From Rhodospirillaceae bacterium (lineage in GTDB: Bacteria; Pseudomonadota; Alphaproteobacteria; Rhodospirillales; Rhodospirillaceae), in the NCBI GenBank assembly GCA_947476925.1, contig CANJSF010000012.1:1-64000 (forward strand): DNA of 64,000 bases, read 5' to 3'. Positions 12,404 through 33,609 of the stretch are shown one piece after another; the first letter of the stretch is position 1; every line of letters starts with the position of its first letter. The notes under the pieces were generated by a model. The model was not told the DNA's origin and ran no database searches. It saw only the letters and a list, made by a program, of their open reading frames with translations. The translations under genes were made by a program, and so were the position numbers.

Positions 12404-15400
12404 TTATTCAGCGGGCTGCTGGTCGTCCTTACCGAAACGACGGCTGGGGAATTCAGCTTCAAATTGCTCCAACTTCGCGGCCACCAATCCGGGCGAGCCC
12501 GTATTCTTGGCCAGAATCTGATAGAAAACTGGCACAACCAACAGCGTGATAAAGCTGGCGAATGTGACGCCAGTGACAATGACCACGCCGATAGCTTGAC
12601 GCCCCTCAGCACCTGCCCCCGAGGCTAACATCAGCGGGACAGCGCCCATAACCGTAGCCAGGGCAGTCATGACGATGGGGCGCAAACGGATGGTTGAAGC
12701 TTCAACTAAAGCGTCGCGGAAGCTCATGCCTGCATCACGTAACTGATTGGCGAATTCGACAATTAGAATGCCGTTTTTGGCCGCTAAGCCCACCAAAACA
12801 ATAATTCCGATTTGCGAATACAAATTAAACGTATCGCCAAAAATCACTAATCCTCCCAAAGCCCCGGCGACCGCCAATGGAACCGTCATAAGAATGACAA
12901 AGGGATGAACAAAACTTTCAAACTGTGCGGCCAACACCAGGTAGACGACCAACAACGACAACCCAAACGCAACGAACATGGCCGAGTTTGTTTCGCTGAG
13001 TTCGGCTGCCTCGCCGCGCCATGTGAGGCGCGCCGTATCGGGCAGGCGTTCTTTCGCAATTTTGTCGATGTCCTTAATAGCATCACCCAGCAGATAGCCA
13101 GGGGCCGGCGTCGCCATCATGGTGATTGAACGCATCCGATCAAGGCGGTTGAGCGAATCCGCGCCTGATATCTCCTCGACCGTCACCAAACTCGATAACG
13201 GGACCAATTCGCGTGTTGTGTCCGAGCGAACATAAATATTGGTGATGTCGCTTGGGGTGCGGCGGTCGTCGAGCTGACCTTGCAACACAACGTTATATTC
13301 CTCGCCTTGGTCGACAAAGGTGGTGACTTTGCGCGACCCAAGCATGATCGACATTGTTTGGCCAATGGCGCCAATCGACACGCCTAAGTCCGACGCCCGA
13401 TTGCGGTCAATCTTGATGCGCATCTGGCCTTTGGTTTCGTTGAAGTTTGAGCGCACCGCAAACAACTTTGGATTCTCGCGCATGCCGGCAATCATGATAT
13501 CGCGCCATTTGCGCAATTCATCATAGGTCTGCCCCCCAATAGCCAATTGCAAACCGCCGCCCCATTGCATCTGACCCATGCCGCCGCCGCTGCTGGTTAC
13601 CATCATGGCGCCGGGAATTTGGCGCACTTTAGGGGCAATCTCGGACATGATTTCAGCCGATGACCGGTGGCGCTTATCCCAAGGCTCGAGCCTAAGAATC
13701 AAATTCCCGGTGTTAGCCGCACCGCCCGCAACGCTTTCGCCCATTGGCAGCATTTGAAGAATGCGCGCCACTTCGCCTTTGCCGACGTAGTCTTTCAAAA
13801 TATTCGTAGCCTGCAGGGCTTGACGGTCCGTGTACTCGAGGCTGGCCCCTTCAGGGGCGCGGACCATCACGTTGACAGTGCCTCGATCCTCAGCCGGCGT
13901 AAATTCCTTGGGCACGACCATAAACAACCCGACTGTCCCGAGAACGATCGCAAGGAAAAACACAACAACGATAGAGGGCCGATCAAGACCCATAATGAGG
14001 GTTTTGCGATAAAATGCCTTCATGCTTTCGAAGGCACTCATGGATGCGCGCGCAACCCGCGTTTCATCTAGCTTGTTGGTCAGAATTTTGCTGCACAGCA
14101 CGGGCGTGAGCGTCAATGCCACAAACATGGAGAAGGCAACGGCGGCAGCCATGGCCACAGCAAATTCGGTGAACAGACGACCAACAGTTCCGGTTTGTAG
14201 CGTGATGGGCACGAACGCTGCGACGAGCACGAGCGTAGTAGCGACAACCGCTACGCCAACCTGACGGGTACCGCGGTAGGCCGCGAGCAATGCCGGCTCG
14301 CCGCGCTTCATGCGACGATGCACGTTTTCCATAACAATGATCGCGTCATCAACCACCAAACCAATCGCCAGAACCATTGCCAGCAATGTTAAGATGTTCA
14401 ACGAGAAGCCCAGAGGGGCAAGCACAATGAACGTGGCCAGCAGGCTAATGGGTACGGTGACAGCAGGAATCAGCGCCGCACGCATGGTGCCCAAAAACAG
14501 GTAGATCACAACCAGCACCAAGATGGCGGCAAAGCCCATGGTGAAGCCGACCTCGCGTAAGGCAGCCGAAATGTAGGTGGACGAATCCATCGAGATCGCG
14601 ACGTCCATATCAGGTGGCAGTGTCTTCTTGATCTGTTCCAATTCGGCTTTGATCGCCTGGGAAACAGCAAGCGTCGAAGCTCCGGGGCGCTTAACCACGC
14701 CGATGCCAACCGCAGCGTTACCATTGGCGCGGAAGCTGGAGTTTTCGTTCTCGGCACCGATTTCGATTTTCGCGACTTCGGCCAACCGTACAAGGTAGTT
14801 GTTTGGGCCGCGCGCGATCACCAGCTTAGCAAAATCATCGGGTGTTTGAAAATTACGCGACGTGCGAAGCGTGAAATCGCGCTCGGATGATTGCAGCACA
14901 CCGGCACCCAGTTCGATGTTCTCCCGGCGCAGGGCAGTTTCGATATCCGTCACGGTAATATTACGTGCGGCCAACGCCCGTCGGTCGAGCCAGACGCGCA
15001 AGGCTTTTTTACGTTCTCCGCCAAACCAGGTGAGCGCAACGCCTTCAATCGATGAGATGCGATCGCGCAAATTGCGCTGGACGTAGTCCGACACTTCCAT
15101 GGCCGAGCGAGTGGTCGAGGCAATGTTGATAAACATGATTGGCTCGGCGTCTTGATCGGCTTTTTGAATCACCGGGGCGTCGGCATCTACCGGCAAACGG
15201 GGCGCCGCACGCGCCACTTGTTCGCGCACATCATTGGCAGCGGCCTCGATATCGCGGCCTAACTCAAACTCGATCGTGATCCAGCCCACGGCATCGCGCG
15301 CGGCCGAGGTCATCGATTTGATGCCCTCAATACCGCTGATTTGATCTTCAATGACTTTGATGATCTTGGTTTCAACAATATCGGATGATGCGCCCGGGTA

Positions 15401-15550
15401 TAAGACACGCACGGATACGACGGGGCGATCAATATTGGGGGTTTCGCGGATTGGCAGTTCTTTGACGGCGAAGACACCAAACACGATCAGCAAAAGGCTG
15501 GCCACAACAGCCACAACCGGGCGCTTGATCGAAAAATCCGAGAGAATCAT
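12404..15550 (-). CDS. RND efflux pump inner-membrane permease
   Basis: A 1048-residue member of the HAE1 resistance-nodulation-division superfamily (AcrB/MexF-type). The N-terminal RPVVAVVASLLLIVFGVF helix, two large periplasmic loops and twelve predicted membrane helices are visible. The proton-relay motif GLVVDDAIIVMENVHRR near residue 400-415 retains both Asp residues, so proton coupling should work. The second half has the typical YSQIGIIVLVGLAAKNGILIVEF. It forms a trimer with the adaptor encoded directly upstream (42-bp gap). No TolC-like outer-membrane factor gene is adjacent, so the pump must borrow one from elsewhere. Substrates cannot be predicted. Confidence 0.95.
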   Translation of the reverse strand: MILSDFSIKRPVVAVVASLLLIVFGVFAVKELPIRETPNIDRPVVSVRVLYPGASSDIVETKIIKVIEDQISGIEGIKSMTSAARDAVGWITIEFELGRDIEAAANDVREQVARAAPRLPVDADAPVIQKADQDAEPIMFINIASTTRSAMEVSDYVQRNLRDRISSIEGVALTWFGGERKKALRVWLDRRALAARNITVTDIETALRRENIELGAGVLQSSERDFTLRTSRNFQTPDDFAKLVIARGPNNYLVRLAEVAKIEIGAENENSSFRANGNAAVGIGVVKRPGASTLAVSQAIKAELEQIKKTLPPDMDVAISMDSSTYISAALREVGFTMGFAAILVLVVIYLFLGTMRAALIPAVTVPISLLATFIVLAPLGFSLNILTLLAMVLAIGLVVDDAIIVMENVHRRMKRGEPALLAAYRGTRQVGVAVVATTLVLVAAFVPITLQTGTVGRLFTEFAVAMAAAVAFSMFVALTLTPVLCSKILTNKLDETRVARASMSAFESMKAFYRKTLIMGLDRPSIVVVFFLAIVLGTVGLFMVVPKEFTPAEDRGTVNVMVRAPEGASLEYTDRQALQATNILKDYVGKGEVARILQMLPMGESVAGGAANTGNLILRLEPWDKRHRSSAEIMSEIAPKVRQIPGAMMVTSSGGGMGQMQWGGGLQLAIGGQTYDELRKWRDIMIAGMRENPKLFAVRSNFNETKGQMRIKIDRNRASDLGVSIGAIGQTMSIMLGSRKVTTFVDQGEEYNVVLQGQLDDRRTPSDITNIYVRSDTTRELVPLSSLVTVEEISGADSLNRLDRMRSITMMATPAPGYLLGDAIKDIDKIAKERLPDTARLTWRGEAAELSETNSAMFVAFGLSLLVVYLVLAAQFESFVHPFVILMTVPLAVAGALGGLVIFGDTFNLYSQIGIIVLVGLAAKNGILIVEFANQLRDAGMSFRDALVEASTIRLRPIVMTALATVMGAVPLMLASGAGAEGRQAIGVVIVTGVTFASFITLLVVPVFYQILAKNTGSPGLVAAKLEQFEAEFPSRRFGKDDQQPAE

Positions 15551-15592
15551 CGTCGTTACCCTTGCAACAGAACCAATATCAATGCTGTGCGA

Positions 15593-16792
15593 TCAACTTG
15601 GTCCACGTGGTGAGGGTGCCGGACCGCGCATGTCGGCTGACGGCGGACTAGCCCCCATTTTATCTTGATTCAGAATTTGTACTTTACCGCCCGGGCGCAA
15701 TTCCATTGTGCCTTCAGTCACTACGATATCGCCCTCGCTGAGACCTTCGAGAACCTCGACCGACCCCACCCGACGGCGACCGATGACAATTTGGACGCGG
15801 CTTGCGGTATTGTCGGGCGCAACAGTGAACACGTATTGCTTGTTGTTTTCAGGAACCAGCGCTTGCTCGGGGATCATCAGCGATTGGCGGCGATCTTTGA
15901 TCAGATCAATCACCATCAGCATGCCGGGCTTCAGGCGCGCTTGTTTATTGGGCACCAGGGCACGAATACCAACCGAGCGCGTGACGGTATCAACACGGCT
16001 GTCGACCGAGACGACTTGCCCCTTAAACAGCTCGCCCTGATAAGCGCTGGTCGTCGCTTCAATATCCAGGCCGGGACGTAGCGTAGCCAAAAACGTTTCG
16101 GGTACAGCAAAATCGAGTTTGATCGTTGAGATATCATCAAGGGTCGTGATCACAGTGCCCGGCGACACAAGCGCGCCTAAGCTAACTTTGCGGGTTCCCA
16201 AGACACCGGCAAAGGGGGCGGCGATTCGGTAGTCGGCCACACGCGCGCGCGCCGAAGCTAGATTCGCCTCTGCTTTCCGCACGGCTGACGTTTGTTGATC
16301 GATGCGCGCTTGCGAAACGTTGTTGGATTTCGCCAAGTCAGTGATGCGCTGCAATTCGCGGCGCTGCTCATCATAGTTAGCAAGTTCCGCACTTAGCCGA
16401 CCGTCTTGTTCGCCAGCATTGATTGCGGCAATTTCTGCACCTTTCTCGACGAACTGTCCGTCGCCAAAATTGAGCGAGCGAATCACGCCGGGCACTTTTG
16501 CCGTTACCGTAATTGATTCGTTAGCTGCTGAGGTACCAATCGCTTCAACGTGATCATCAAACACTTCCGTCGCAACTTTTGTAACAAGCACGGGTGTTGG
16601 ACGGCCCATACCCGGCGGACCGCCGCGTCCGCCACCTGCGCCCATGCCGCCACCCATTCCAGGAGGTGGGCCGCCAGCGCCGCGTGCGGAGGACGCCGTC
16701 GGAGCTGATTGCGGAGCAAAGTAATAATAAAGACCGCCGCCGATAACAGCGATAACGACAAGCCCGGTGAAACCTAAAATAGCGGAACGCAT
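15593..16792 (-). CDS. RND periplasmic adaptor (membrane fusion protein)
   Basis: A periplasmic adaptor of about 399 residues from the ATG at 16792. That start is preferred because it places the single membrane anchor (residues 4-24) at the N-terminus; the frame stays open to 16852. A Gly/Pro/Met-rich linker occupies residues 38-63, then lipoyl/beta-barrel halves (TAKVPGVIRSLNFGDGQFVEKG and VADYRIAAPFAGVLGTRKVS) flank a short alpha-hairpin. The hairpin is short, as in MexA-like adaptors. It is the first gene of the pump operon, preceded by repeated GTTACA elements. Its C-terminal tail is Pro/Ser-rich. Confidence 0.92.
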   Translation of the reverse strand: MRSAILGFTGLVVIAVIGGGLYYYFAPQSAPTASSARGAGGPPPGMGGGMGAGGGRGGPPGMGRPTPVLVTKVATEVFDDHVEAIGTSAANESITVTAKVPGVIRSLNFGDGQFVEKGAEIAAINAGEQDGRLSAELANYDEQRRELQRITDLAKSNNVSQARIDQQTSAVRKAEANLASARARVADYRIAAPFAGVLGTRKVSLGALVSPGTVITTLDDISTIKLDFAVPETFLATLRPGLDIEATTSAYQGELFKGQVVSVDSRVDTVTRSVGIRALVPNKQARLKPGMLMVIDLIKDRRQSLMIPEQALVPENNKQYVFTVAPDNTASRVQIVIGRRRVGSVEVLEGLSEGDIVVTEGTMELRPGGKVQILNQDKMGASPPSADMRGPAPSPRGPS

Positions 16793-16871
16793 GTGACTAA
16801 AACTGACCTTTGTCGAACGCCGACATCGCGCACATCGCACGCGTGTCGACACAATCCGATGCTTTGTACGG

Positions 16872-18037: not shown

Positions 18038-18132
18038 AGCAGCACATTGGACAGAGGTGTGGTTGTCGGGTGTATCATAGCCCGCGAAAAGCATGCGCCA
18101 TATCCACATTACTAAGTGAGGATCGTCAAACC

Positions 18133-19239
18133 ATGTTCCGTACACTGATTGTGTTGCTAACGTTGATAGTGCTTGGGGCAAGCGCGGCGCAGGCCCAGCA
18201 AAATCCGTTTGGGCCACGCAATGGGCCTGGGCAGCAGGCCCCAAGCATGGGCGACGAGGCCCCCGTCAAACCAATGATCACGCTTCCAGCACCGGTCCGT
18301 GCGATGTTTCGGCAAATTGCCGACTGGCAGCGCGATTTGAACCGCTTTCTCGGTGGCAAATTGCGTGAGTCGAGCGCGCAAGGCAGCTGGCTGGCCGCAC
18401 TTACTGTTCTCCTTGCCAGCTTTCTCTATGGCGTACTGCATGCCGCAGGGCCGGGCCACGGAAAGATGGTTGTGGCATCTTATTTCACAGCCAAGAAAGC
18501 ACCCTTGAAAACCGGCATTTTGATGGGCGGGGTGATTGCAATAACGCAAGCGCTCGTTGCCATTGGTGTGGTGGGAGTACTGTTCATCGTCATTGGTCGT
18601 AGCCAACAACAAGTGATGAGTGATGCGAATTGGTTGGAGCTTGTCAGTTACGCCATCATCTTCGGCATCGGCGCCTATATGACGTTTTGCGCCATCACCG
18701 GCCGTGAAGCGTTTGCACACGATCACGGACCCGCCGCCAGCACGTTTGATGACAACGCCAAAGTCGCCCACGTGCATCATGATCATTCACATCATCATTA
18801 CCATCATGGATACGTTCATCATGAGCACGAACATCACCACGATCACGATCATGGTGGAACGAATGCGCGCGAGACCTGGCTAGCGCGCATGGGGCGTTCG
18901 CTCGCGGGACGCGACGGCGAAGTCGTCGCGGTGGGAATTGTCTCGGGCGTGCGGCCCTGCACGGGCTCGATCCTGGTTTTACTATTCTCGCTAGCCAATG
19001 GCGTGTTTCTGCTCGGCATCGCGGCGGCATTATCCATTGCCATGGGCGTTGCAATCACCGTGTCGGCGTTAGGAATCGCCACTATCGTCATGCGCCGCGC
19101 CGTCGCCGGTGGTGAACGCGACCCAGCCCCTTGGCGCGCAAAGGCTAGCTATGCTTTGACGTTGGCTGGCTCAATGGGCGTGATGTTGATGGGCGGCCTA
19201 TTGCTAGGCGGGGCGCTGGAACTCAACGGCATCATTTAA
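18133..19239 (+). CDS. NicO-family nickel/cobalt efflux transporter (RcnA-like)
   Basis: A 368-residue transporter, starting at the ATG at 18133 after a GAGGA box. A signal-like helix (1-22) is followed by membrane segments with the family motif YGVLHAAGPGHGKMVVASYF (residues 99-118). A cytoplasmic or periplasmic His-rich loop at 196-240 holds about twenty His plus several Asp/Glu residues, an obvious metal-capture region. The second motif SGVRPCTGSILVL follows. Known members export Ni2+/Co2+. The DUF1007 gene, its usual genomic partner, lies tail-to-tail 8 bp downstream on the opposite strand. Confidence 0.92.
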   Translation: MFRTLIVLLTLIVLGASAAQAQQNPFGPRNGPGQQAPSMGDEAPVKPMITLPAPVRAMFRQIADWQRDLNRFLGGKLRESSAQGSWLAALTVLLASFLYGVLHAAGPGHGKMVVASYFTAKKAPLKTGILMGGVIAITQALVAIGVVGVLFIVIGRSQQQVMSDANWLELVSYAIIFGIGAYMTFCAITGREAFAHDHGPAASTFDDNAKVAHVHHDHSHHHYHHGYVHHEHEHHHDHDHGGTNARETWLARMGRSLAGRDGEVVAVGIVSGVRPCTGSILVLLFSLANGVFLLGIAAALSIAMGVAITVSALGIATIVMRRAVAGGERDPAPWRAKASYALTLAGSMGVMLMGGLLLGGALELNGII

Positions 19240-19247
19240 AACAGGGG

Positions 19248-19853
19248 CTAATTGCAGTTCAGCTTCACGAGCTGCGGCGTGACTGTGCCATTCTCATTGG
19301 CGATGTCGTCACCCGATGAAAAATTCCAACTACACTTTTTAGGGTCGATGCCCTGAAGTACGAGGGGCTTATCGCCGCCCAGGACGATATCGACGTAAAT
19401 GGTCGGGTCATAAAGACTGAAGAGTGTTTTTGTGGCGCGCAGGTCCAACTGCTTGGGCAACACCAATTCGAAGTTATAGACCAGTTCACCTTTGTCTGTG
19501 GTGGTTGAGAAGTTTTCCACTCGATCAAATTTGGCCTCTGTACCATTCACGCGCAAATGCGTGAAATAACCATAATCACGCAATGACGTGAAAACTTGCG
19601 CCTTCATGGCGGCGGTTTCGTCCGCATCAAACTTGCCGTCCTTATTGGTGTCAAAATCGCCAGTTAGCACTTGGCTGAAAAACGCATCAAACTGCCAGCG
19701 CATGGCAATCCGCGTCAGCATGTCGTTCTCGAATTGAAAGGTTGACGCCCCCGTCACCCAGACGTGGGGATGAGCAAGGGCCGGTTTGGCAGCAAGGGCC
19801 GCAAAAACCACCAAGCAGAGGTCAAGGCGTATGGAACGGGAAAATAAGGGCAT
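19248..19853 (-). CDS. DUF1007 periplasmic protein with EF-hand-like loop
   Basis: About 201 residues from ATG 19853, with a signal peptide ending at PALAHPHVW. The mature N-terminus His-Pro-His is a plausible metal ligand. DUF1007 proteins accompany NicO nickel/cobalt transporters in many genomes. Residues 68-79 (D-T-N-K-D-G-K-F-D-A-D-E) fit the 12-position EF-hand calcium loop at every ligand position. The gene is convergent with, rather than co-directional to, the NicO gene. An assisting role in metal handling is family-based; the molecular function is unknown. Confidence 0.88.
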   Translation of the reverse strand: MPLFSRSIRLDLCLVVFAALAAKPALAHPHVWVTGASTFQFENDMLTRIAMRWQFDAFFSQVLTGDFDTNKDGKFDADETAAMKAQVFTSLRDYGYFTHLRVNGTEAKFDRVENFSTTTDKGELVYNFELVLPKQLDLRATKTLFSLYDPTIYVDIVLGGDKPLVLQGIDPKKCSWNFSSGDDIANENGTVTPQLVKLNCN

Positions 19854-19921
19854 AGGGCACAGTATTGGACGTTGACCAGCAATCTCAAGAGCTGAGGCAA
19901 GCAAAAATCAAAGCATAGAAA

Positions 19922-22544: not shown

Positions 22545-23720
22545 ATGTTCCCAATCTTTCTGATCACGTTTGTTGACCTTGTTGGCTTCGGCCTGCTGAT
22601 TCCGCTACTGCCGTTCATTGTTCAGCGGACGGGAGCAAGCATGGAAGTCATCACCATTGTCTTGGGCCTGTACTCGCTTGTGCAGTTCTTGGCCGCGCCG
22701 ATTTGGGGACGCATAAGTGATAAATGGGGACGCAAGCCTGTTCTTGTGATCACCAGCTATGGCTTGGCGTTGTCGTACGTGATTGTTGCCTACGCCCAGA
22801 GCCTTGAAATGCTGATTGTGAGCAGAGTGGTGGGCGGCATCATGGCGGCCAACATTGGCGCTGCGCAGGCGTATATGGCCGACATCACGACGCCCGAAAA
22901 CCGCTCTAAAGGGATGGGCGTTCTTGGCGCAGCATTTGGTTTGGGCTTTATTTTGGGGCCGGCCATTGGCGGCGTGCTGGGAGGCAACGATGCCGCGACT
23001 GCCGATTTTTTCGTCCCCTCGATGGTCGCTGCTGGGATTACCGTTGCAGCCGCGTTGGGCGCTCAGTTTTTCCTGAAAGAAAGCTTAAGCCCGGAGATTC
23101 GCGCCAAGTTGGCATTACGGCCGCCAGAGAAATTGATCGATAAAATTCGCGCCGGGCTCAGCCGTGGCACGCTGGTCATGCTGATCTTGTGCGCCTTTCT
23201 AACGATCACGGCTTGGGCACAATTCGAAACACTGTTCGCATTCTGGGCAGATGCCAGGCTCAGCTATGGGCCGCGCGATATTGGTTTGCTGCTGACGTTC
23301 ATCGGCATGATCAGCGCCCTTGTGCAAGGCGGGGCCATCGGACGGCTTACAAAAATGTTTGGCGAGCGGCGCTTGGTGTTGGCCGCGATGATGTTGACGT
23401 TCGCCGGGTTCATCACGTTCACATTTGCACACAACCTGAGCATTACGCTGGTGGCCTGCGCATTGTTATCGCTCGGCTCGGGCTTATTTAACCCCAGCAT
23501 CTCGAGCCTGATTTCGCAGCAGGCCGCTGAGACCGAGCGCGGCGCAGTGATGGGCACTTTTCAGAGTGCAACCGCCCTTAGTCGTATTGTTGGCCCGGCG
23601 TTTTCGGGCCTCGTGTTTGCGAGCCTGGGCGCCGATGCACCGTTTTTGATTGCAGCAGCTTTGATTGTGCCAGCGTTTCTTTTGGTATTATTCTTACCCC
23701 AATCAGCACCCGCTCGCTAA
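22545..23720 (+). CDS. MFS transporter, Tet/TCR-like drug-H+ antiporter type
   Basis: A 391-residue, 12-helix major facilitator. Motif A between helices 2 and 3 reads GRISDKWGRKPVLVITS, and the GAAFGLGFILGPAIGGVLGG segment in helix 5 matches the drug-proton antiporter motif C. Such carriers export tetracyclines, sugars or metabolites; the substrate is unknown. It is the first gene of a tight plus-strand series with the ABC ATPase, chelatase-like and double-hydrolase genes (gaps 30, 26, 6 and 4 bp) and is divergent from pip. Confidence 0.9.
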   Translation: MFPIFLITFVDLVGFGLLIPLLPFIVQRTGASMEVITIVLGLYSLVQFLAAPIWGRISDKWGRKPVLVITSYGLALSYVIVAYAQSLEMLIVSRVVGGIMAANIGAAQAYMADITTPENRSKGMGVLGAAFGLGFILGPAIGGVLGGNDAATADFFVPSMVAAGITVAAALGAQFFLKESLSPEIRAKLALRPPEKLIDKIRAGLSRGTLVMLILCAFLTITAWAQFETLFAFWADARLSYGPRDIGLLLTFIGMISALVQGGAIGRLTKMFGERRLVLAAMMLTFAGFITFTFAHNLSITLVACALLSLGSGLFNPSISSLISQQAAETERGAVMGTFQSATALSRIVGPAFSGLVFASLGADAPFLIAAALIVPAFLLVLFLPQSAPAR

Positions 23721-23749
23721 AGGGCGCTGGTTTGTTCAGGGAGGCAGTC

Positions 23750-24451
23750 GTGTTAGAAGCCATTCAGTTGAAAAAGAAGTATGGCGAATTTGAAGCGCTT
23801 AAATCGCTCAATCTCAAAATCAATGCTGGCGATATTTACTGCCTATTAGGTGCCAACGGCGCGGGCAAGAGCACGACAATAAATCTGTTTTTGAATTTCA
23901 TCGACCCCAGCGCTGGAACAGCAACCGTGAACGGTTTGGATGTTACCCAACACCCGCTCGCGACAAAAATGTTTCTCGCCTACATCCCAGAGACAGTCAT
24001 GTTGTACGGCAATCTGACGGGGCTAGAGAACCTTTCATACTTTGCCAAACTCGGCGGGCACGACGAATACACACAGGCTGATCTTAAAAACTTCCTAAAG
24101 CATGTCGGCTTGCAGGGCGATGCCCACGACAAACGCGTTGGTGCGTATTCAAAGGGCATGCGCCAAAAAGTTGGCGTGGCGATTGCCCTTGCCAAAAAAG
24201 CCAAGGCTTTGTTGCTTGATGAGCCAACCTCGGGCCTTGATCCCAAAGCCAGCAACGAGTTCTCAGCGTTGCTGAAACAATTGCAAGCCGACGGCGCTGC
24301 GATTCTGATGGCCACGCACGATCTGTTTCGCGCGAAAGAAACGGGCACTCGCATCGGCATCATGCGCGAGGGTGTGCTGATGCAAGAGATGTCCACCGAT
24401 GAAGTCTCGCACGCCGACGTGGAGCGTATTTACCTCGAACATATGCATTAA
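23750..24451 (+). CDS. ABC transporter ATP-binding subunit without adjacent permease
   Basis: About 234 residues from the GTG at 23750, which has GGGAGG five bases upstream; the open frame extends to a TTG at 23732. Walker A GANGAGKS (residues 34-41), the signature YSKGMRQKV, Walker B KALLLDEPTSGLD and the H-loop MATHDLF are intact, so ATP hydrolysis is expected. The closest type is the exporter-like ATPases of gliding/Nat/CcmA class (YIPETVMLYGNLTGLENL). No ABC permease gene is present nearby; the next gene has only one membrane segment. The partner is either unlinked or absent. Confidence 0.93.
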   Translation: MLEAIQLKKKYGEFEALKSLNLKINAGDIYCLLGANGAGKSTTINLFLNFIDPSAGTATVNGLDVTQHPLATKMFLAYIPETVMLYGNLTGLENLSYFAKLGGHDEYTQADLKNFLKHVGLQGDAHDKRVGAYSKGMRQKVGVAIALAKKAKALLLDEPTSGLDPKASNEFSALLKQLQADGAAILMATHDLFRAKETGTRIGIMREGVLMQEMSTDEVSHADVERIYLEHMH

Positions 24452-24476
24452 ATTATTCCACGACTCAGGGACCAGA

Positions 24477-25973
24477 ATGGGCGCGTTGAAAAAAATTGCG
24501 GTTAGCCTTGGTGTTCTGGTTCTGGTCGCAGCAATCGGTGGAGCTGGCGCGTTCTGGTTTATGAACCGTACGCCACCGCAGTTAGCCGAGCCAAATTACT
24601 TCACGTATTACAAAACCCAAGACACCACGCCCGTGGGTAAGGTTGGTATTTTTGTCACCGGGCTGATTATGCCCGAGAATTTCCGCATCGAAGATTTCTA
24701 CAACCTTGCGCTTAAGCCGCAGCAATACATTCCTTGGCCTATCCGTATTTTCGCATTGGCTGATCGCGGCGTTGTGCTGCTCGATCCCGATAAATTCTAC
24801 GAGTTCAATAATTTCACACCGAACAAGCTGGTGGACTTCCACGGCAGCGAGATTGATGTCGACGGAGTCAGGTACATCGACAAGTATAAAGAAGGCCACG
24901 TGCAATGGGTGCCGCCCAACCCAACACAGCACATGGACCATGGCTACTTTTTATATGCGGACCGTAAAAGCGGCATGCCGACCATCGCCAACAAACTACT
25001 GACGAAGGCCAAGGTTTATTACTACGGTAAGGGCAAGGGTTTTACAGATGGCCGTTTACCGCACGAGGCTGGTGAGTGGGCGATTGTCTCGGCCGCCATG
25101 GAGCGCATAAAGGCCAAGTACGGCGATGTGCCAATCCGTTTTGTGAGTGCTGAGCGACCTGGAATCTCGCGGCAATATGTGCGCGAGATGTTGGATGGTG
25201 GCGTTGAGACGATCGTGATGGCAGCGCCGCGCCCAATTTATTCGCATCATGAAGAGTTCAATGGCTCGATCAAACATACCATGCACTACATCGAAGAGTG
25301 GGAGCGCGAACACGGCAAGAAAATCAAAATGATTATTACGCCGCAGTTGGGCGAGTTCCCAGTAATGAAAGACGCATATTTGAATATGTTGCGGGATCGC
25401 TTGGCCACTTTCCCCAAAGACGCCAAGGTAAAGGTGGTTGTTTCAGTCCACGGCATGGCCTGGGACAACGTGCCAAACGAGGCGTGGATCCAACTGGCTC
25501 CACCCTATCGCGATGGCATGGTCCAGGCGGTGAAAGACGAGTTAGCCAAACATGCGTTTACAAAGACGGAAGTTGTGCAGGCACAAGATCATTTTGCCGA
25601 CCCTCAAAGCGATCCCAAAGGAAAATACCTTTCGACCAATCGCGCATTTTGGGAGGGCGTGAAGGGCGGCTACGATTACGTGGTCAATTTACCAATCGAA
25701 TTTTTTGCCGAAAACACCGACACAATGTTTAGCCACGCTATGTTTAACTTTGAAGGTTTTCCTGGCTACGACATTTATGACCCAGTCGATTACCCCGATT
25801 GGAGCGTCCCTTATACGCGCACGTTCAAAGTCGAGAACACTGAAGTCATTTATAACGGCCTGCCGGTAGGTAAATACAACGCGCCAATTGTCGACGCCTA
25901 CGTGCAAGCTATCGATTCTGTGCTATCCAAGAACAAGACGCCCAAGCAACAATCGGCCAGCACAGCGCAGTAA
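24477..25973 (+). CDS. membrane-anchored ferrochelatase/CbiX-superfamily-like protein
   Basis: About 498 residues from the ATG at 24477 (GGGACC upstream; the frame itself extends to 24399). Residues 6-28 are a signal anchor, so the bulk is periplasmic. The middle and C-terminal parts resemble the two-lobed chelatase fold. PIRFVSAERPGISRQYVREM and GVETIVMAAPRPIYSHH recall the first lobe of HemH. VKVVVSVHGMAWDNVPNEAW matches the FSxHGxP catalytic-His strand. LPIEFFAENTDTM aligns with the F-x-x-x-x-x-E-T-L region that carries the catalytic Glu in ferrochelatase. This is a pattern-based family call, not a proven one. Metal insertion in the periplasm would be unusual. Confidence 0.5.
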   Translation: MGALKKIAVSLGVLVLVAAIGGAGAFWFMNRTPPQLAEPNYFTYYKTQDTTPVGKVGIFVTGLIMPENFRIEDFYNLALKPQQYIPWPIRIFALADRGVVLLDPDKFYEFNNFTPNKLVDFHGSEIDVDGVRYIDKYKEGHVQWVPPNPTQHMDHGYFLYADRKSGMPTIANKLLTKAKVYYYGKGKGFTDGRLPHEAGEWAIVSAAMERIKAKYGDVPIRFVSAERPGISRQYVREMLDGGVETIVMAAPRPIYSHHEEFNGSIKHTMHYIEEWEREHGKKIKMIITPQLGEFPVMKDAYLNMLRDRLATFPKDAKVKVVVSVHGMAWDNVPNEAWIQLAPPYRDGMVQAVKDELAKHAFTKTEVVQAQDHFADPQSDPKGKYLSTNRAFWEGVKGGYDYVVNLPIEFFAENTDTMFSHAMFNFEGFPGYDIYDPVDYPDWSVPYTRTFKVENTEVIYNGLPVGKYNAPIVDAYVQAIDSVLSKNKTPKQQSASTAQ

Positions 25974-25979
25974 AAAGTC

Positions 25980-27698
25980 ATGTCTATCAAACGCTATTTC
26001 GTGCCTATCGAAAGCGCGCAGCTTCATGTTCGCCGTGTTGGCGAAGGACCTGCGGTTATTTTGCTGCACCCCTCACCGCAGTCGAGCAGCTTCTCGATTC
26101 CCATGGCCCTTAAGTTGGCGGCGCAAGGCTTTACTGCCATTGCGGTCGATCTGCCGGGTTATGGATTGTCTGATCCTTTGGTGGGCGGGTACCCGAAGGG
26201 CTTGGATCATGACCATGGTTTAGATCCATATTTACCGCCTTTTGTGCAACTGCTTGATGCGCTGGGACTTGAGAAAGCGGTGTTCTACGGCAATGCCACG
26301 GGCGCTGAGCTCTCACATATTTTTGCTTTCAACCATCCGAACCGCGTTGCCGTGGCGATGCTTGATACCGCGGGCCACAACCCCGACGACGAAGTTGATA
26401 AACTCACCGACGGTTATTTTCCCGACACCACGCCCAAACGCGACGGCGGGCATTTGCTGACCTACTGGGACATGGTGCGGTTTTTGTCGATTTATGCGCC
26501 GTGGCAATTCACCGATAAAGCCCATCGGTTACCAGTCGATCAGCCGCCCGCGGACAAAGTTCATGAGAAGCTGATTGAATATTTGCGCGCCGGGCAAAAC
26601 TACGCAGATGCCTACCGGCCTGCGTTCTACACCGCCAAGGGTAACCTGATTGGCCGCTTGAAAGTGCCCGCCACCCTGACCCGCTGGGAAGGCAAAGCCA
26701 ATATCGCCGAGATCGACGCCCTGATTGAGTACGGCTTGCCACCCAATTTTACTGTACTACGCCCGGGCCCCAGCATGGATCAACGGCTTGATGCGAGCGT
26801 GGATTACTTAGTTCAAAACTACAAAGCTATCGGCGTTCCGGCGCCAGCGCAGCCCAGGCAAATCGACAGCGCGGTCAAGCGCTTGCAAAAAATGTGGATA
26901 GATGTTCCTGGCGGGCAAATGCTGGCTCGTGTTTGTATGGCCGGTACTGGGCGGCCAATATTGGGTCTGCACGATCCGGCAGGTTCTTCAAAGCGGTTGG
27001 AATCTATTTTAGCGCCGTTCATCGGCAAGCATCCGGTCATCGCGATTGATAATCCGACGTCGGGTGAATCTGACAAGCTGCTGAAGCGCGAAGATATCTC
27101 CATCGAAGCCTATGCGCGCTATGCCATTGCCGCCCTTGATGCTTTGGGCATCAAAGAGGTGGATGTGATTGGGCGTTACTCTGGCGGCCAAGTCGCTATG
27201 GAGATGAGTGCGCAGCGGCCGGGTTTAGTGAAACACATCGGCCAGTTAGGCGTGATGATTTTTTCCGATGCCGAGCGCGCTGATTTGCTGGCCAACTATA
27301 CGCCCTCCATTGCGCCACAGTGGGATGGCAGCCACCTGGTCACGGCTTGGGCGATTATCCGTGATATGAATTTATTCTGGCCTTGGTACAACCGAACCAA
27401 AGCAGGCGTTATCGCGCGCGATGTGTCGATTGATGGGCCGACGCTGCACCCACGCGTTGAGGATTTACTCAAAATGGGCGATGCCTATCAGAATGCCTAT
27501 GCCGCTTCGTTCAACTACCCCATGGCTGAAAAACTAAAGCAGTTAAAGGTGCCGTGCTTGGTGGCCGACCTGCCCGGCAGCGGAACTTATAACCGCATCG
27601 CAATGGCCAAAGCTGTAGCCCCGCAGATTGCGACCGCTGACTTAACCGAAGACGCGGCGAGTTGGGGTGTGGTGTTTGACAGGTTTTTTGCGAGTTGA
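25980..27698 (+). CDS. double alpha/beta-hydrolase-fold protein 1, nucleophiles lost
   Basis: A 572-residue protein of two fused alpha/beta-hydrolase domains (about 1-285 and 305-572), starting 7 bp after the preceding stop. Each half has the strand-loop pattern LLHPSPQSSS or GLHDPAGSS, then VDLPGYGLSD or IDNPTSGESD. The expected nucleophile elbow G-x-Ser-x-G reads G-N-A-T-G in half one (Ala106) and G-R-Y-S-G in half two (Tyr400). Neither half keeps a serine at the canonical position, and no clear C-terminal catalytic His is seen. It is therefore probably not a classical esterase. The next gene encodes a paralogue with the same substitutions, so they are conserved, not random decay. Confidence 0.85.
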   Translation: MSIKRYFVPIESAQLHVRRVGEGPAVILLHPSPQSSSFSIPMALKLAAQGFTAIAVDLPGYGLSDPLVGGYPKGLDHDHGLDPYLPPFVQLLDALGLEKAVFYGNATGAELSHIFAFNHPNRVAVAMLDTAGHNPDDEVDKLTDGYFPDTTPKRDGGHLLTYWDMVRFLSIYAPWQFTDKAHRLPVDQPPADKVHEKLIEYLRAGQNYADAYRPAFYTAKGNLIGRLKVPATLTRWEGKANIAEIDALIEYGLPPNFTVLRPGPSMDQRLDASVDYLVQNYKAIGVPAPAQPRQIDSAVKRLQKMWIDVPGGQMLARVCMAGTGRPILGLHDPAGSSKRLESILAPFIGKHPVIAIDNPTSGESDKLLKREDISIEAYARYAIAALDALGIKEVDVIGRYSGGQVAMEMSAQRPGLVKHIGQLGVMIFSDAERADLLANYTPSIAPQWDGSHLVTAWAIIRDMNLFWPWYNRTKAGVIARDVSIDGPTLHPRVEDLLKMGDAYQNAYAASFNYPMAEKLKQLKVPCLVADLPGSGTYNRIAMAKAVAPQIATADLTEDAASWGVVFDRFFAS

Positions 27699-27702
27699 GC
27701 GC

Positions 27703-29400
27703 GTGGCAACAATCACAAAACATTTTCTGCCCCTGACTGATGGCGGCCAGATCCACTACCGGCGCGCAGGCCACGGTCCACCGCTGATCATTATGCATCC
27801 CTCGCCCAACTCCTCGGCGAACATGACGACGGCGATTAACGCATTCTCAGAGATTTTTACCTGTATTGCCCTCGACACGCCGGGCTATGGCTTGTCGGAT
27901 GATGTTGTTGCTGATCCCACCTTATTGTGGGGTTATGCCGACGTCGTGGCCCAGGTGCTGGATGGCTTAGGTATTCAACAAGCCTGCATTTATGGCGCGG
28001 CCACCGGCGCGCAAATTGGCATTCAATTCGCACGCAAGTACTCCGCGCGCACGGCGCTGCTGTTGCTCGACGCCAATGGCCATTTTGGCGGGGCTGCAGG
28101 CGAACATATCGCAAATGGCTATTTCCAAGACATCACGCCGGTGCGAGATGGCTCTCACCTGATTCGGATCTGGGATATGTGCCGGCACCTCTCGGTGTTC
28201 TTTCCTTGGCAATCGACACGCGGGACAGACCGCTTAGCTTTGGGCGTTGCGCCGCCCGACTCCATTCAGCACAGCGTGAATGATTATTTGCGCGCAGGGC
28301 CGGGATACAAAAAAGCCTACTACCAAGCCATGGTGGTCGAGACTTGGGAGAACACTCGCCAGGTCAGCGTGCCGGTACACATGGTGCGTAACTCGGGCAG
28401 TGTGTTATTGCCCCACACCGATGCTCTGATTGCCAAGGGCTTGCCGCCTAATTTCACCATCTTGCATTGTGATCCACCGCAGCGCTTCAAGGTGCAGCTC
28501 GACGCAGCGAAACAAAAACTGGCGCAGCTGAATTTGCCGACGCCGCGTCCGTCGCAAAATGATCACACGCCTAGCTATCAGCGCATTCAGAATTTCTATG
28601 CCGCCGCACGCGGTGGTCAATTGCGCATTCGCGGTAATCTAGCGGGCAAAGGTCGGCCGATCATCGCGCTGCACGACCCAGCAGGCTCATCGCTCCTCGT
28701 CGAGCCGATCCTGGCGCCCTATCTGGGGCAGCGGCCGATCATTGCGCTGGATCTGCCCGGCAACGGCGAGTCCGATAACGTGATTGACCCCAGCAACATT
28801 ACATCACGTGCCTATGCAGAAATTGTGATCGAGGCGCTGAATTCAATCGGCGTGCACGAAGTAGATGTGATTGGCCGTTACTCGGGCGGGCCCATTGGCA
28901 TGGAGATGAGTTTTCAACATCCTGCCTTGGTGAAGCACTTGGTGCTGGCGGGTGTGGGCATTTACGAAGGCGCGGAGCAAAAAAGCTTGCTCGATAACTA
29001 TACGCCGTCCATCGCGCCGCGGTGGGATGGCGCACATTTGGTGCGGGCATGGGCGATCATGCGCGACCAGGGTTTGTTTTGGCCGTGGTTTAACCGAACC
29101 AAGAGCGGCAATTTGCCGAGCGACAACTCCATCGACGTGCCAATGATTCACCTCCGCGTCATGGAGATGTTGAAAATTGGCGACCAATATCAAAAAGCGT
29201 ACGGCGCTATGTGGACCTACCCGATGCGCGAGCGATTGCCGAAGCTGAAGGTGCCAGCCTTATTCGCCGTGCCAACATGGGAACCGATTTATAGCAAAAA
29301 TGCAGAGTGCGCGGCGCTGGCGACCTACAGCCGCACTGCCGACTTAGCCCCCCGCATGGGCGACTGGCACCAGGAGTTCACACCCTTTTTCGGGTCATAA
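27703..29400 (+). CDS. double alpha/beta-hydrolase-fold protein 2, nucleophiles lost
   Basis: About 566 residues from the GTG at 27703; a TTG at 27688 is the alternative, and neither start is certain. It is a tandem duplicate of the preceding gene: IIMHPSPNSSAN, IALDTPGYGLSD, then elbow G-A-A-T-G (Ala100) in half one and G-R-Y-S-G-G (Tyr393) in half two. Shared second-half signatures include SIAPRWDGAHLVRAWAIMRD and the FWPWFNRTK and YPMRERLPKLKVP segments. The same signatures occur, in single-domain form, in the hydrolase at 52531-53370. There is no signal peptide, so the pair is cytoplasmic. The function is unknown; ligand binding or non-hydrolytic chemistry is possible. Confidence 0.85.
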   Translation: MATITKHFLPLTDGGQIHYRRAGHGPPLIIMHPSPNSSANMTTAINAFSEIFTCIALDTPGYGLSDDVVADPTLLWGYADVVAQVLDGLGIQQACIYGAATGAQIGIQFARKYSARTALLLLDANGHFGGAAGEHIANGYFQDITPVRDGSHLIRIWDMCRHLSVFFPWQSTRGTDRLALGVAPPDSIQHSVNDYLRAGPGYKKAYYQAMVVETWENTRQVSVPVHMVRNSGSVLLPHTDALIAKGLPPNFTILHCDPPQRFKVQLDAAKQKLAQLNLPTPRPSQNDHTPSYQRIQNFYAAARGGQLRIRGNLAGKGRPIIALHDPAGSSLLVEPILAPYLGQRPIIALDLPGNGESDNVIDPSNITSRAYAEIVIEALNSIGVHEVDVIGRYSGGPIGMEMSFQHPALVKHLVLAGVGIYEGAEQKSLLDNYTPSIAPRWDGAHLVRAWAIMRDQGLFWPWFNRTKSGNLPSDNSIDVPMIHLRVMEMLKIGDQYQKAYGAMWTYPMRERLPKLKVPALFAVPTWEPIYSKNAECAALATYSRTADLAPRMGDWHQEFTPFFGS

Positions 29401-29681: not shown

Positions 29682-30605
29682 ATGAAATCCAAACTATCAA
29701 TAATTGGTGCGTTGGCGCTTCTTTTGGCGACGGCCCATGGCGCAGCGGCGGCCCCCTTCACTGGCCCGCTCAGCAAGTATTACTTGCTTAATCCCTACGA
29801 CAAGTCGGTCTACGTGGTCCAAGGCGCCGCGGTCATCAATTCCTTCGCGACAAGCTACAACGCCAGCCCGACAGAAGATGCAGAAGCGATGTTGGCTGTA
29901 ACCACCGTCGTCAGCACGCGTAGTTTTGGTTGGGACGCAGGCGGCACAGCGGGACAATACAGCGCAACCGGCACGCCGACGGGCTTCTCGTGGGCGGCCG
30001 ATACGAGCCTTCCTGGGCGTCACTCTGAAATTTATGATGGTACTTCGGACGGCACCTATAATTATGCTGTCGAGTCGATTGGTTGGGGCGCTGGTGGCAA
30101 CGGCGAAAAAGTTTTGCGCTTCGATGCCAACTGGCAAAATCCTGAAATTTTATTTTCATTGAACAGTGACGACTGCCAGATCAGCGGCAATTGCGAAGCC
30201 GTCTTCTCGATTGCCTATGACAGCTTCACCAACACGCTCTGGATGGGCGGCTATGGCACATCTTTCCTGTTTAATTACGACATGACAGGCAATTTGCTGT
30301 CGTCGTTTAACACCAACAATTGGGACAATGGCGCTTTGGCCTTCGACCCCCTTGACGGAACCCTTTGGATGACCGTGGGCGAAAGCTCGCTGCTCAGTCA
30401 GTGGTCGACATCGGGCGTGTTGCTGCAAGAAGGCACACCGATGGGCATGCCAGCTTCGGATGGCATTAATTATTTTGCCTCGGGCGACATGTCGCCTTAC
30501 GCCGAAATCATCAATCCCCCGGCCGTACCCGAACCGGCTGCCATGGCGCTGCTGGGCTTTGGCCTGCTGGGCCTGGGCGCGATGCGCCGTCGCAAGGCCT
30601 CATAA
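29682..30605 (+). CDS. PEP-CTERM sorting domain protein
   Basis: A 307-residue exported protein preceded by AAGAGG. The signal peptide ends at GAAAAPFTG. The mature part is rich in Ser/Thr/Asn/Gly and Trp and resembles beta-propeller or -sheet blades (NTLWMGGYGTSFLFNYDM, GTLWMTVGESSL). The C-terminus carries the exosortase signal: VPEP at 282-285, a hydrophobic stretch and the basic end MRRRKAS. Exosortase removes this tail and routes the protein to the cell surface. No exosortase gene is in the window. The upstream sigma-54 promoter with paired sites ties it to the PrsK/PrsR-type regulon, by inference. Confidence 0.93.
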   Translation: MKSKLSIIGALALLLATAHGAAAAPFTGPLSKYYLLNPYDKSVYVVQGAAVINSFATSYNASPTEDAEAMLAVTTVVSTRSFGWDAGGTAGQYSATGTPTGFSWAADTSLPGRHSEIYDGTSDGTYNYAVESIGWGAGGNGEKVLRFDANWQNPEILFSLNSDDCQISGNCEAVFSIAYDSFTNTLWMGGYGTSFLFNYDMTGNLLSSFNTNNWDNGALAFDPLDGTLWMTVGESSLLSQWSTSGVLLQEGTPMGMPASDGINYFASGDMSPYAEIINPPAVPEPAAMALLGFGLLGLGAMRRRKAS

Positions 30606-32607: not shown

Positions 32608-33609
32608 ATGGCACCTTCCGGATCACCTGTTTATGCCGCGACCATTGGCGTCGCCGACCTTGATCGTTCCATCGAATTTTATTGCACCCACATTGGCTTT
32701 GATGTGTTGGCTCGTACGCGCATGCAAGGCCCTGCCTTTGAACGCCATTGGCAACAGCCCCCCGGCGCCGCCGCCACCGTTGCGGTGCTGGCCGACCGTT
32801 GCGAGATCGGGCGGATTGTGTTGATGCAATGGGATGGGGCGGATCGACGCCTCATTCGCAACGTCGATGCGCAGTTGGCCTATGGTTTTGTTAACCTGAA
32901 CTTCTACTCCAACGATATTCATGCGCATACGCAACGCATCGCGGCTGCAGGCTACCGGGCGTGGAGCGCGCCCACCGTGCATGACATGGGGTGGGATATT
33001 GGCGAGCCGATTGAAGTGATGATTGACGGCCCCGACGGCGTGATCTTGAACCTCATTCAATTCAACGCGCGCAATCCCAAAGCGCGAACGATGGAAACAA
33101 GCGCTTATGTGGCCGATCAGTTTGGCTACAATCGCTGCGGCCTGACGCCCGTAGCAACAACGGCGCACCATGTGCGCGACTTCGATAAGGCATTGGCGTT
33201 TTATCAGCGCGTGTTTGACATGGATGTGCGCATCGCCACCATACTGAAGGGCGCAGACATGGAGCATTTCACGCGCTTTCCGCCAGGCGCCGAAGCGCGC
33301 GATACTTACCTGCGCGGCTATCACCTGTTTGGCAAAATTGCGCTGATTCAACCGCTGAACTTTGCATGCCTTGATATGGTTCACGCGGCAGTTCCGCCCA
33401 ACATCGGTTACATCGCGCAAACTTTTCTGGTGCCTGACCTTGATCAGGCCCTTTTGAACGCTGCAGGGGCGGGGGGCGCCCTGGTTTCTGGCGCCATCGC
33501 GTTGGAGATGCCGGGCCTGGGCAAAACGCGTGCGGCCATCGTGCGCAACCCCGGCAGCGGCGGTCTACAAGAGATCGTGGAAATGACTGAGAAGGTTGGC
33601 CCGGTATGA
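32608..33609 (+). CDS. two-domain VOC family protein
   Basis: A 333-residue protein with two vicinal-oxygen-chelate domains: VYAATIGVADLDRSIEFYC at residue 5 and LTPVATTAHHVRDFDKALAFY about residue 180. The paired halves resemble extradiol-type or glyoxalase-like enzymes that hold one metal. Putative ligands (His, Glu) are present but the reaction cannot be assigned. The ATG follows the preceding stop by 20 bp. Confidence 0.85.
   Translation: MAPSGSPVYAATIGVADLDRSIEFYCTHIGFDVLARTRMQGPAFERHWQQPPGAAATVAVLADRCEIGRIVLMQWDGADRRLIRNVDAQLAYGFVNLNFYSNDIHAHTQRIAAAGYRAWSAPTVHDMGWDIGEPIEVMIDGPDGVILNLIQFNARNPKARTMETSAYVADQFGYNRCGLTPVATTAHHVRDFDKALAFYQRVFDMDVRIATILKGADMEHFTRFPPGAEARDTYLRGYHLFGKIALIQPLNFACLDMVHAAVPPNIGYIAQTFLVPDLDQALLNAAGAGGALVSGAIALEMPGLGKTRAAIVRNPGSGGLQEIVEMTEKVGPV

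Follow-up and report, generated by a model that had tools for sequence, protein, structure and literature searches.

Five genes follow one another on the + strand at 22545-29400 of the Rhodospirillaceae DNA analysed here (the window, 64,000 nucleotides, on contig C12 of genome G000, which is 3.8 Mb and 99% complete; G, C and L numbers are our handles for genomes, contigs and loci). They encode a major facilitator superfamily (MFS) transporter, an ATP-binding cassette (ABC) ATPase, a membrane-anchored chelatase-like protein (CHP) and two tandem alpha/beta hydrolases, double hydrolases DH1 and DH2. We see an even chance that the core of this locus is a NosFY-like ABC-2 machine with two DUF3526 permeases and a periplasmic partner of chelatase fold, handling a metal or a metallo-tetrapyrrole, with one ATPase shared between permease sets. 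The first-pass annotation of the window, made from the letters alone, had described an ATPase without a permease. Locally this holds, as no permease gene lies near the ATPase within the window locus, but genome-wide it does not, since a DUF3526 pair is encoded in trans, and in cis in four relatives. A permease-free ABC system was accordingly rejected. Gene content, co-occurrence, the cis and trans permeases, the CHP fold, its conserved histidine and the loss of hydrolase nucleophiles were established by sequence or by model.

The ABC ATPase and its DUF3526 permeases

The ATPase gene (23750..24451, +) starts at a GTG at 23750, with an alternative TTG at 23732, and its product has intact Walker A (GANGAGKS), signature (SKGMRQ), Walker B (LLLDEP) and H-loop (THD) motifs, as the first reading had stated. 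It is NosF-like and of the two-permease DUF3526 type: in searches of the Protein Data Bank (PDB), NosF was the best-scoring prokaryotic chain in the ATPase list (E 4.7e-36), and the sole match of the permease profile below E 0.1 was NosY (E 6.5e-5). Among 61 related genomes, the close ATPase subfamily occurs in 11 and DUF3526 in 11, and these are the identical 11 genomes, namely the ten that carry CHP plus G002; among 14 well-known control genomes, DUF3526 was found in one (Caulobacter). The ATPase gene is single in 10 of the 11 (its two fragments in G036 share an overlap of 385 identical bases and count as one), and G001 and G036 (88% and 66% complete) combine one ATPase with two permease pairs.

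Encoded in cis, two extra proteins, of ~490 residues where complete, precede CHP at L014 (G004), L018 (on a contig named Gammaproteobacteria), L019/L060 (G001) and L024 (G036); those of L014 and L018, the two loci typed, match ABC2_membrane_2 and DUF3526 above cut-off. The trans permeases of G000 are a single DUF3526/ABC2_membrane_2 pair located on contigs C38 and C78, which share an overlap of 149 identical bases; CopC/CopD and DUF1775 genes are neighbours of the pair. G002, without CHP and without cis permeases, keeps the ABC, DH1 and DH2 genes and the copper-locus permeases. ABC-DUF3526-DUF3526 gene sets are also present in G339 and G322, and plasmids of Methylocystis bryophila, Hymenobacter canadensis and Blastomonas sp. 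RAC04 carry ATPase-permease-permease sets whose ATPases are 54, 60 and 48% identical to that of the window, respectively. These plasmid operons resemble the window set in their related ATPase and two permeases, one or both annotated as DUF3526, and differ in that the ATPase adjoins the permeases, no chelatase-like protein is annotated, and the records name no function; a TonB-dependent receptor is adjacent in the Hymenobacter and Blastomonas sets and ~10 kb away in Methylocystis. We regard the pairing of the ATPase with DUF3526 permeases as very likely. In the literature, no paper of the collection searched mentions DUF3526, and none of the matches listed describes this gene set by title or abstract.

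Outside the CHP locus there are 13 permease loci (L044-L055 and L124, with L044 and L045 being the two ends of one). Six of them (L046, L047, L048, L049, L051 and L052) have the order OEP - multicopper oxidase - DUF1775 - CopCD - permease - permease, L045, L050, L053 and L124 show part of this order, and at L044, L054 and L055 the permeases lie at a contig end, accompanied by DUF1838 in two of the three; Pfam confirmed the gene names at L046 and L045, and CopCD and CpeT also on L124. No ATPase of this kind was found by blastp (1e-5) at 12 of the 13 loci, among which L045, L050, L053, L054 and L055 span less than 9 kb. The exception is L052 (G028), whose ATPase is 77% identical to that of the window, and in G028 CHP stands without an ABC gene. 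NosD, NosL, NosZ and nos genes were not among the copper-locus proteins typed, and no genome-wide search for them was made. In G000, a cytochrome b561 gene adjoins the copper-locus permeases, and heme is therefore probably needed. It is fairly probable that the ATPase of the window serves the copper-locus permease pair in trans, a judgement set lower because G005 has three further ATPases.

Copper systems offer two comparisons. NosFY/NosDFY, the copper-delivery ABC system of nitrous oxide reductase (PDB 7o0y), resembles the window set in the NosF and NosY matches and in the copper-type neighbourhood of the trans permeases. It differs in having one NosY instead of two large DUF3526 permeases, and the ATPase and permeases described here are encoded apart. 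NosD, a beta-helix protein, stands where the window set has CHP with its ferrochelatase fold. The likeness to copper uptake by YcnJ/YcnI (CopC-CopD, DUF1775), as far as the abstract describes it, lies in the CopCD and DUF1775 genes beside the trans permease pair (PMC12362106); the B. subtilis operon is ycnKJI, and ABC permeases are not mentioned in that abstract (PMC12362106).

Two further gene families recur around these loci. A DUF1838-like gene lies adjacent to or one gene from the copper-locus permeases at L044, L046, L047 and L124 and one gene from HemH at L134, L135 and L140 (G027, G005 and G096), and is a possible link between heme and copper loci. CpeT-family (bilin lyase-like) genes are found near copper-locus permeases or adjoining DUF1775/ATPase genes (L052 3425-4891 on the - strand, L062 3075-4121 and L124 10274-10978).

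The anchored chelatase-fold protein

CHP (24477..25973, +) had been described as single-span and chelatase-like, and both descriptions stand. Its one hydrophobic span is N-terminal (about residues 7-28, codons 24495..24560, +) and follows Lys-Lys, and by the positive-inside rule, an established basis for reading membrane topology, the body of the protein is predicted to face the periplasm. The ferrochelatase match is weak, being sub-threshold in Pfam, and a search of PDB sequences with the CHP profile gave a single chance match (E 0.024), so that a fold search was needed. The structure model (mean pLDDT, the predicted local distance difference test, 70; 14 sequences) matches ferrochelatases with a Foldseek E of 1e-7 and a VIA-align Z of 20.5 (root-mean-square deviation 3.5 over 287 residues), followed by SirB (Z 15.6), periplasmic CbiK (Z 13.6) and FetB (Z 13.5). 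The CHP profile also picks up a true HemH (E 4e-4), making the homology visible from both sides, and hhalign (E 3e-4) places His325 of CHP, in an SAHG motif (codon 25449..25451, +), on the presumably catalytic histidine of HemH. This histidine is kept in 13 of the 14 rows of the CHP alignment, the exception being G020. As modelled, CHP is a divergent protein of class II chelatase fold, not one to be filed as HemH.

Compared with the HemH/CpfC ferrochelatases (PF00762, TIGR00109), CHP shares the fold (Z about 20) and the catalytic His, and differs in its membrane anchor, its predicted periplasmic location, its length (the solved chains are shorter by ~140-190 residues) and its Asp in place of the catalytic Glu. 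Desulfovibrio CbiK (2xvx) and Porphyromonas FetB (9b86) are, like CHP, of class II chelatase fold and located outside the cytoplasm; they are smaller, and match CHP less well in structure than HemH does. We know of no coupling of CbiK or FetB, the latter of which we take to be IhtB, to a DUF3526 ABC transporter. IhtB has been described as a putative ferrochelatase/reverse ferrochelatase (PMC13227078). CcmABCD/E heme translocation, outlined in PMC10457321 as a membrane complex that shuttles heme to a mobile chaperone, is similar by analogy only. At the CHP loci, where most unlabelled neighbours stayed untyped, a TonB receptor with a heme importer (Hmu/Iht-type) was not recognised, and no genome-wide search for these was made. 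We give even odds to a role of CHP in the periplasm as a partner for metal or tetrapyrrole.

The protein is restricted in its occurrence. It was found in 10 of the 61 related genomes, in 15 of 73 family genomes (carriers include G092-G095) and in 2 of 385 class genomes (G000 and G389); among 398 phylum genomes there was no second true CHP beside that of G000, the one weak extra match being an ordinary HemH beside HemE, and a search of plasmids gave zero matches. A pattern scan for close relatives across 84,980 species genomes returned 9 loci. The named records carrying CHP relatives are metagenome-assembled genomes, mostly titled Rhodospirillaceae or Alphaproteobacteria, one of them from deep Lake Baikal.

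We compared 17 CHP loci: the window, L012, L013, L014, L015, L016, L017/L064, L018, L019+L025+L060 (G001), L020/L070, L021, L022, L023, L024, L066, L067 and L069. The ABC gene is immediately upstream of CHP on the same contig in 14 of the 17, counting loci with intervening permeases, and in G001 a contig break falls between the two. A DH gene follows CHP in 13 loci; there is none at L017, L018 and L067, and L024 stops at a contig edge. Several loci lie on contigs that are cut short (G001, G020, G036 and the contig ends C38/C78 of G000). The genes are thus found together in genomes other than that of the window, and their order recurs in several genera. The ratio of nonsynonymous to synonymous substitution rates (dN/dS) is ~0.02-0.03 for ABC and CHP and ~0.07-0.13 for DH1/DH2, rough values given that dS is saturated; the four genes are under purifying selection and are maintained, not decaying. 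Gene order in several genera and purifying selection together indicate that the locus is more than a chance arrangement. The flanking NicO, DUF1007, MT and PIP genes are likewise syntenic with the CHP locus, which makes conserved order alone weak evidence; stronger evidence than synteny alone comes from G389 (L066), where ABC-CHP-IclR-DH is found again in different surroundings. Two loci carry disrupted copies: at L013 (G020), the CHP frame is interrupted by an in-frame TAG, and at L069 (G096 C28), CHP and also DH1 are split in a second G096 copy, an intact copy being present elsewhere in that genome.

Double hydrolases and neighbouring genes

DH1 (25980..27698, +) and DH2 (27703..29400, +) are paralogues (45% identical), each with an Abhydrolase_1 match in Pfam, and the alpha/beta hydrolase fold is confirmed for both (Z 27.1 for the C-half of DH1). 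Their nucleophile elbows read GNATG (DH1) and GAATG (DH2) in the N-half and GRYSGG in the C-half of both, and all 20 proteins of the DH alignment have G-x-A-T-G and GR-Y-[SA]-GG at these places. In alignments with solved hydrolases, the nucleophile position holds Ala in the N-halves and Tyr in the C-halves, so neither elbow has a Ser, Cys or Asp nucleophile. The active sites are thus altered as first noted, and for DH1 and DH2 these lost nucleophiles support the view that the chemistry may not be ordinary ester hydrolysis.

The wider double-hydrolase family occurs in 18 of the 385 class genomes (E 1e-45 or better). His occupies the N-half nucleophile position (G-x-H-T) in 22 of 22 aligned family members outside the window and G002, a set drawn from the genomic regions retrieved and limited to proteins of 400 aa or more, as against Ala in DH1, DH2 and their G002 orthologues. 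The elbow reads GTHTG and GSHTG in two single-domain relatives (Comamonas and Sphingomonas, respectively), GTHTG in the C-half of an Azospirillum double protein, and ATHTS in the N-half of a double protein of Sphingomonas pJE1. G000 itself holds a third double hydrolase of the family (C40:881-2542, L109), with the elbow GFHTG. DH pairs occur elsewhere without ABC or CHP beside them, and the coupling of the DHs to ABC-CHP is partial; a functional link between the DHs and the ABC/CHP unit seems to us somewhat less probable than its absence.

A protein of the VOC (Glyoxalase/dioxygenase) superfamily, of 333 aa, is encoded at 32608..33609 (+) and is a possible distant member of the set. Its relatives lie adjacent to or near tandem double hydrolases at L106, L107 and L108, and across distant alphaproteobacteria a VOC protein repeatedly accompanies double hydrolases, either adjoining them or close by (L106, L107, L108 and L113). 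In the window the gene is not next to DH2, and none is near DH2 in the labelled CHP loci.

The MFS gene (22545..23720, +; MFS_1 in Pfam) encodes a Tet-like transporter that scores under the curated Tet cut-offs. The five-gene order had been read as an operon with gaps of 30, 26, 6 and 4 bp; all five open reading frames are present on the + strand in that order, ABC_tran being the Pfam match of the ATPase, and the gaps measure 29, 25, 6 and 4 bases. The MFS gene probably does not belong with the others. Of the 17 CHP loci, 11 have it upstream in the same orientation and 6 lack it or have it on the opposite strand (the latter in G389), and in G001, G002, G004 and G096 an opposite-strand TetR gene separates it from ABC, making it a separate unit there. 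It is probably a conserved neighbour outside the core unit. The dedicated membrane-associated process that had been suggested for the five genes is plausible, with the MFS probably outside it and no DH beside CHP in 3 of the 17 loci. Motif scans were uninformative, with 2 promoter-like sites against 5.7 expected and 11 terminator-like sites against 9.9 expected.

Further genes surround the set. A PEP-CTERM protein is encoded after DH2 on the same strand (29682-30605) and suggests an exosortase system in the organism. Upstream, 12404-16852 and 18070-19904 hold a resistance-nodulation-division (RND) efflux pump with a CusB/HlyD-type adaptor, a NicO nickel/cobalt transporter and DUF1007. The RND/NicO/DUF1007 stretch, whose synteny with the locus is conserved, is a metal-related neighbourhood.

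Proposed mechanism and rival explanations

The following scheme is inferred as regards the physical pairing of the ATPase with the trans permeases, the membrane topology, the substrate and the direction of its movement, and what the DHs do. The ancestral layout, judging from relatives, would have been a TetR gene facing ABC-permease-permease-CHP. In the lineage of the window the cis permeases would have been lost, and the single ATPase would energise the trans permeases of the copper-type operon. ATP hydrolysis would drive permease movement, loading or unloading a metal or metallo-tetrapyrrole on periplasmic partners, of which CHP, metal-binding and possibly porphyrin-handling, would be one, much as NosFY serves NosD. 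DH1 and DH2 may be cytoplasmic helpers, perhaps binding rather than hydrolysing.

A number of observations weigh against this scheme. The 11 genomes with ATPase and DUF3526 all fall within 5 of 47 genera in one family, so the co-occurrence is confounded by descent. The cis permeases form a clade (98/99) separate from that of the copper-locus permeases (90/93), which makes one ATPase driving both something that we infer; no copper-locus pair was seen in G004, and on the short-contig permease loci a nearby ATPase could lie out of sight. The three further ATPases of G005 (59-63% identical) stand beside DUF1775 genes, away from its two permease pairs. One-ATPase sharing is thus not general and a strict one-ATPase rule is weakened, and by their position these genes appear to tie the subfamily to DUF1775 again. 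ABCA lipid transporters top the PDB matches of the ATPase (2.5e-52), ahead of NosF, and CHP has no adjacent ABC gene of this subfamily at L017 (G028) and L067 (the second G389 copy). As to CHP itself, the mean pLDDT of 70 is a caution, its scores are under the HemH cut-offs (20.9 of 27 bits for PF00762 and 16.9 of 124.6 bits for TIGR00109), the hhalign probability is only 39 on thin alignments, and residues 412-416 (ENTDT, codons 25710..25724, +), aligned with EHVET of HemH, put Asp415 in place of the presumably catalytic Glu.

An unlikely alternative, yet the least so of the rivals, is TetR-controlled export or detoxification, in which an ABC-2 exporter and the MFS would expel a toxic small molecule, CHP would act in the periplasm as an adaptor or by sequestration, and the proteins of hydrolase fold would bind or modify the compound. 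A TetR gene divergent to ABC in G001, G002, G004, G036, G096 and the contig named Gammaproteobacteria would fit this, as would the Tet-like MFS and the best NCBIfam model for the ATPase, drrA (under its cut-off); however, the 6 loci mentioned have no MFS gene or one in opposite orientation, the permeases match NosY, the trans pair sits among copper-type genes, and the window has no TetR gene at this place. Less probable again is that DH1 and DH2 are working enzymes of a catabolic step, with ABC-CHP an inherited neighbourhood that has no functional link to them. Members of the wider family do have IclR, FAD oxidase, aldehyde dehydrogenase and substrate-binding-protein genes around them, some DH pairs have neither ABC nor CHP next to them, and the flanking NicO, DUF1007, MT and PIP genes are equally syntenic; against it, ABC, CHP and a DH-like gene come together again in the different setting of G389 (L066), and the three DH-less CHP loci (G028, the second G389 copy and L018) have a single-domain alpha/beta hydrolase nearby.

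The ferrochelatase fold and catalytic His of CHP also raise the reading that it is a membrane-anchored replacement ferrochelatase finishing heme synthesis in HemH-less genomes. PF00762 is over cut-off in 62 of the 73 family genomes, and among the 53 with completeness of 90% or more and contamination of 5% or less, a HemH match over cut-off is missing in only G000, G002, G008 and G020, all four of which carry the ATPase and three of which carry CHP (Fisher p 0.025, ignoring descent). Yet G002 has neither CHP nor HemH, G004, G005, G027 and G028, among others, have both, CHP is periplasmic by the positive-inside rule, and neither HemE nor HemJ turned up in G000, G003, G008 and G020, implying no protoporphyrin there by the classical route. 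Of 10 genomes searched for HemE (TIGR01464), 2 gave a match (G006 and G028; controls 7 of 14) and eight did not (G000, G002, G003, G004, G005, G008, G020 and G027); these eight all carry the ATPase, as does G028. G006, without the ATPase, is the only ATPase-free genome in this test, so HemE loss is context for CHP with no established link. HemJ exceeded its cut-off in G006 alone (and in 2 of 14 controls); no HemJ match was obtained in G028 either, although it has HemE and HemH, making HemJ absence weak evidence. On the distribution of HemH, HemE and HemJ, the replacement ferrochelatase was rejected as the principal explanation, and we hold it to be very improbable. G004, G005 and G027 keep HemH without HemE, and tetrapyrrole dependence or an alternative heme route is possible in the HemE-less genomes. 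A bolder form of the NosFY-like scheme, a long shot in our estimate, is a periplasmic chelatase or de-chelatase: outside the cytoplasm, CHP would insert metal into an external porphyrin (heme, a chlorophyll derivative or copper-porphyrin) or remove it, powered by the NosFY-like ABC machine whose ATPase is shared with the copper-delivery permeases, in HemE-less and often HemH-less bacteria salvaging tetrapyrroles, and the DHs would bind or process the freed tetrapyrrole.

If the NosFY-like machine with its chelatase-fold partner is real, it would represent a chelatase-fold protein that is located outside the cytoplasm and coupled to an ABC-2 transporter, together with an ABC ATPase switching between the permeases of a chelatase module and those of a copper-type operon. 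It raises the testable questions of what cargo DUF3526 transporters carry and whether class II chelatase folds act on metals in the periplasm, and the apparent loss of HemE in 8 of the 10 genomes tested is an added reason to examine tetrapyrrole salvage in these bacteria.

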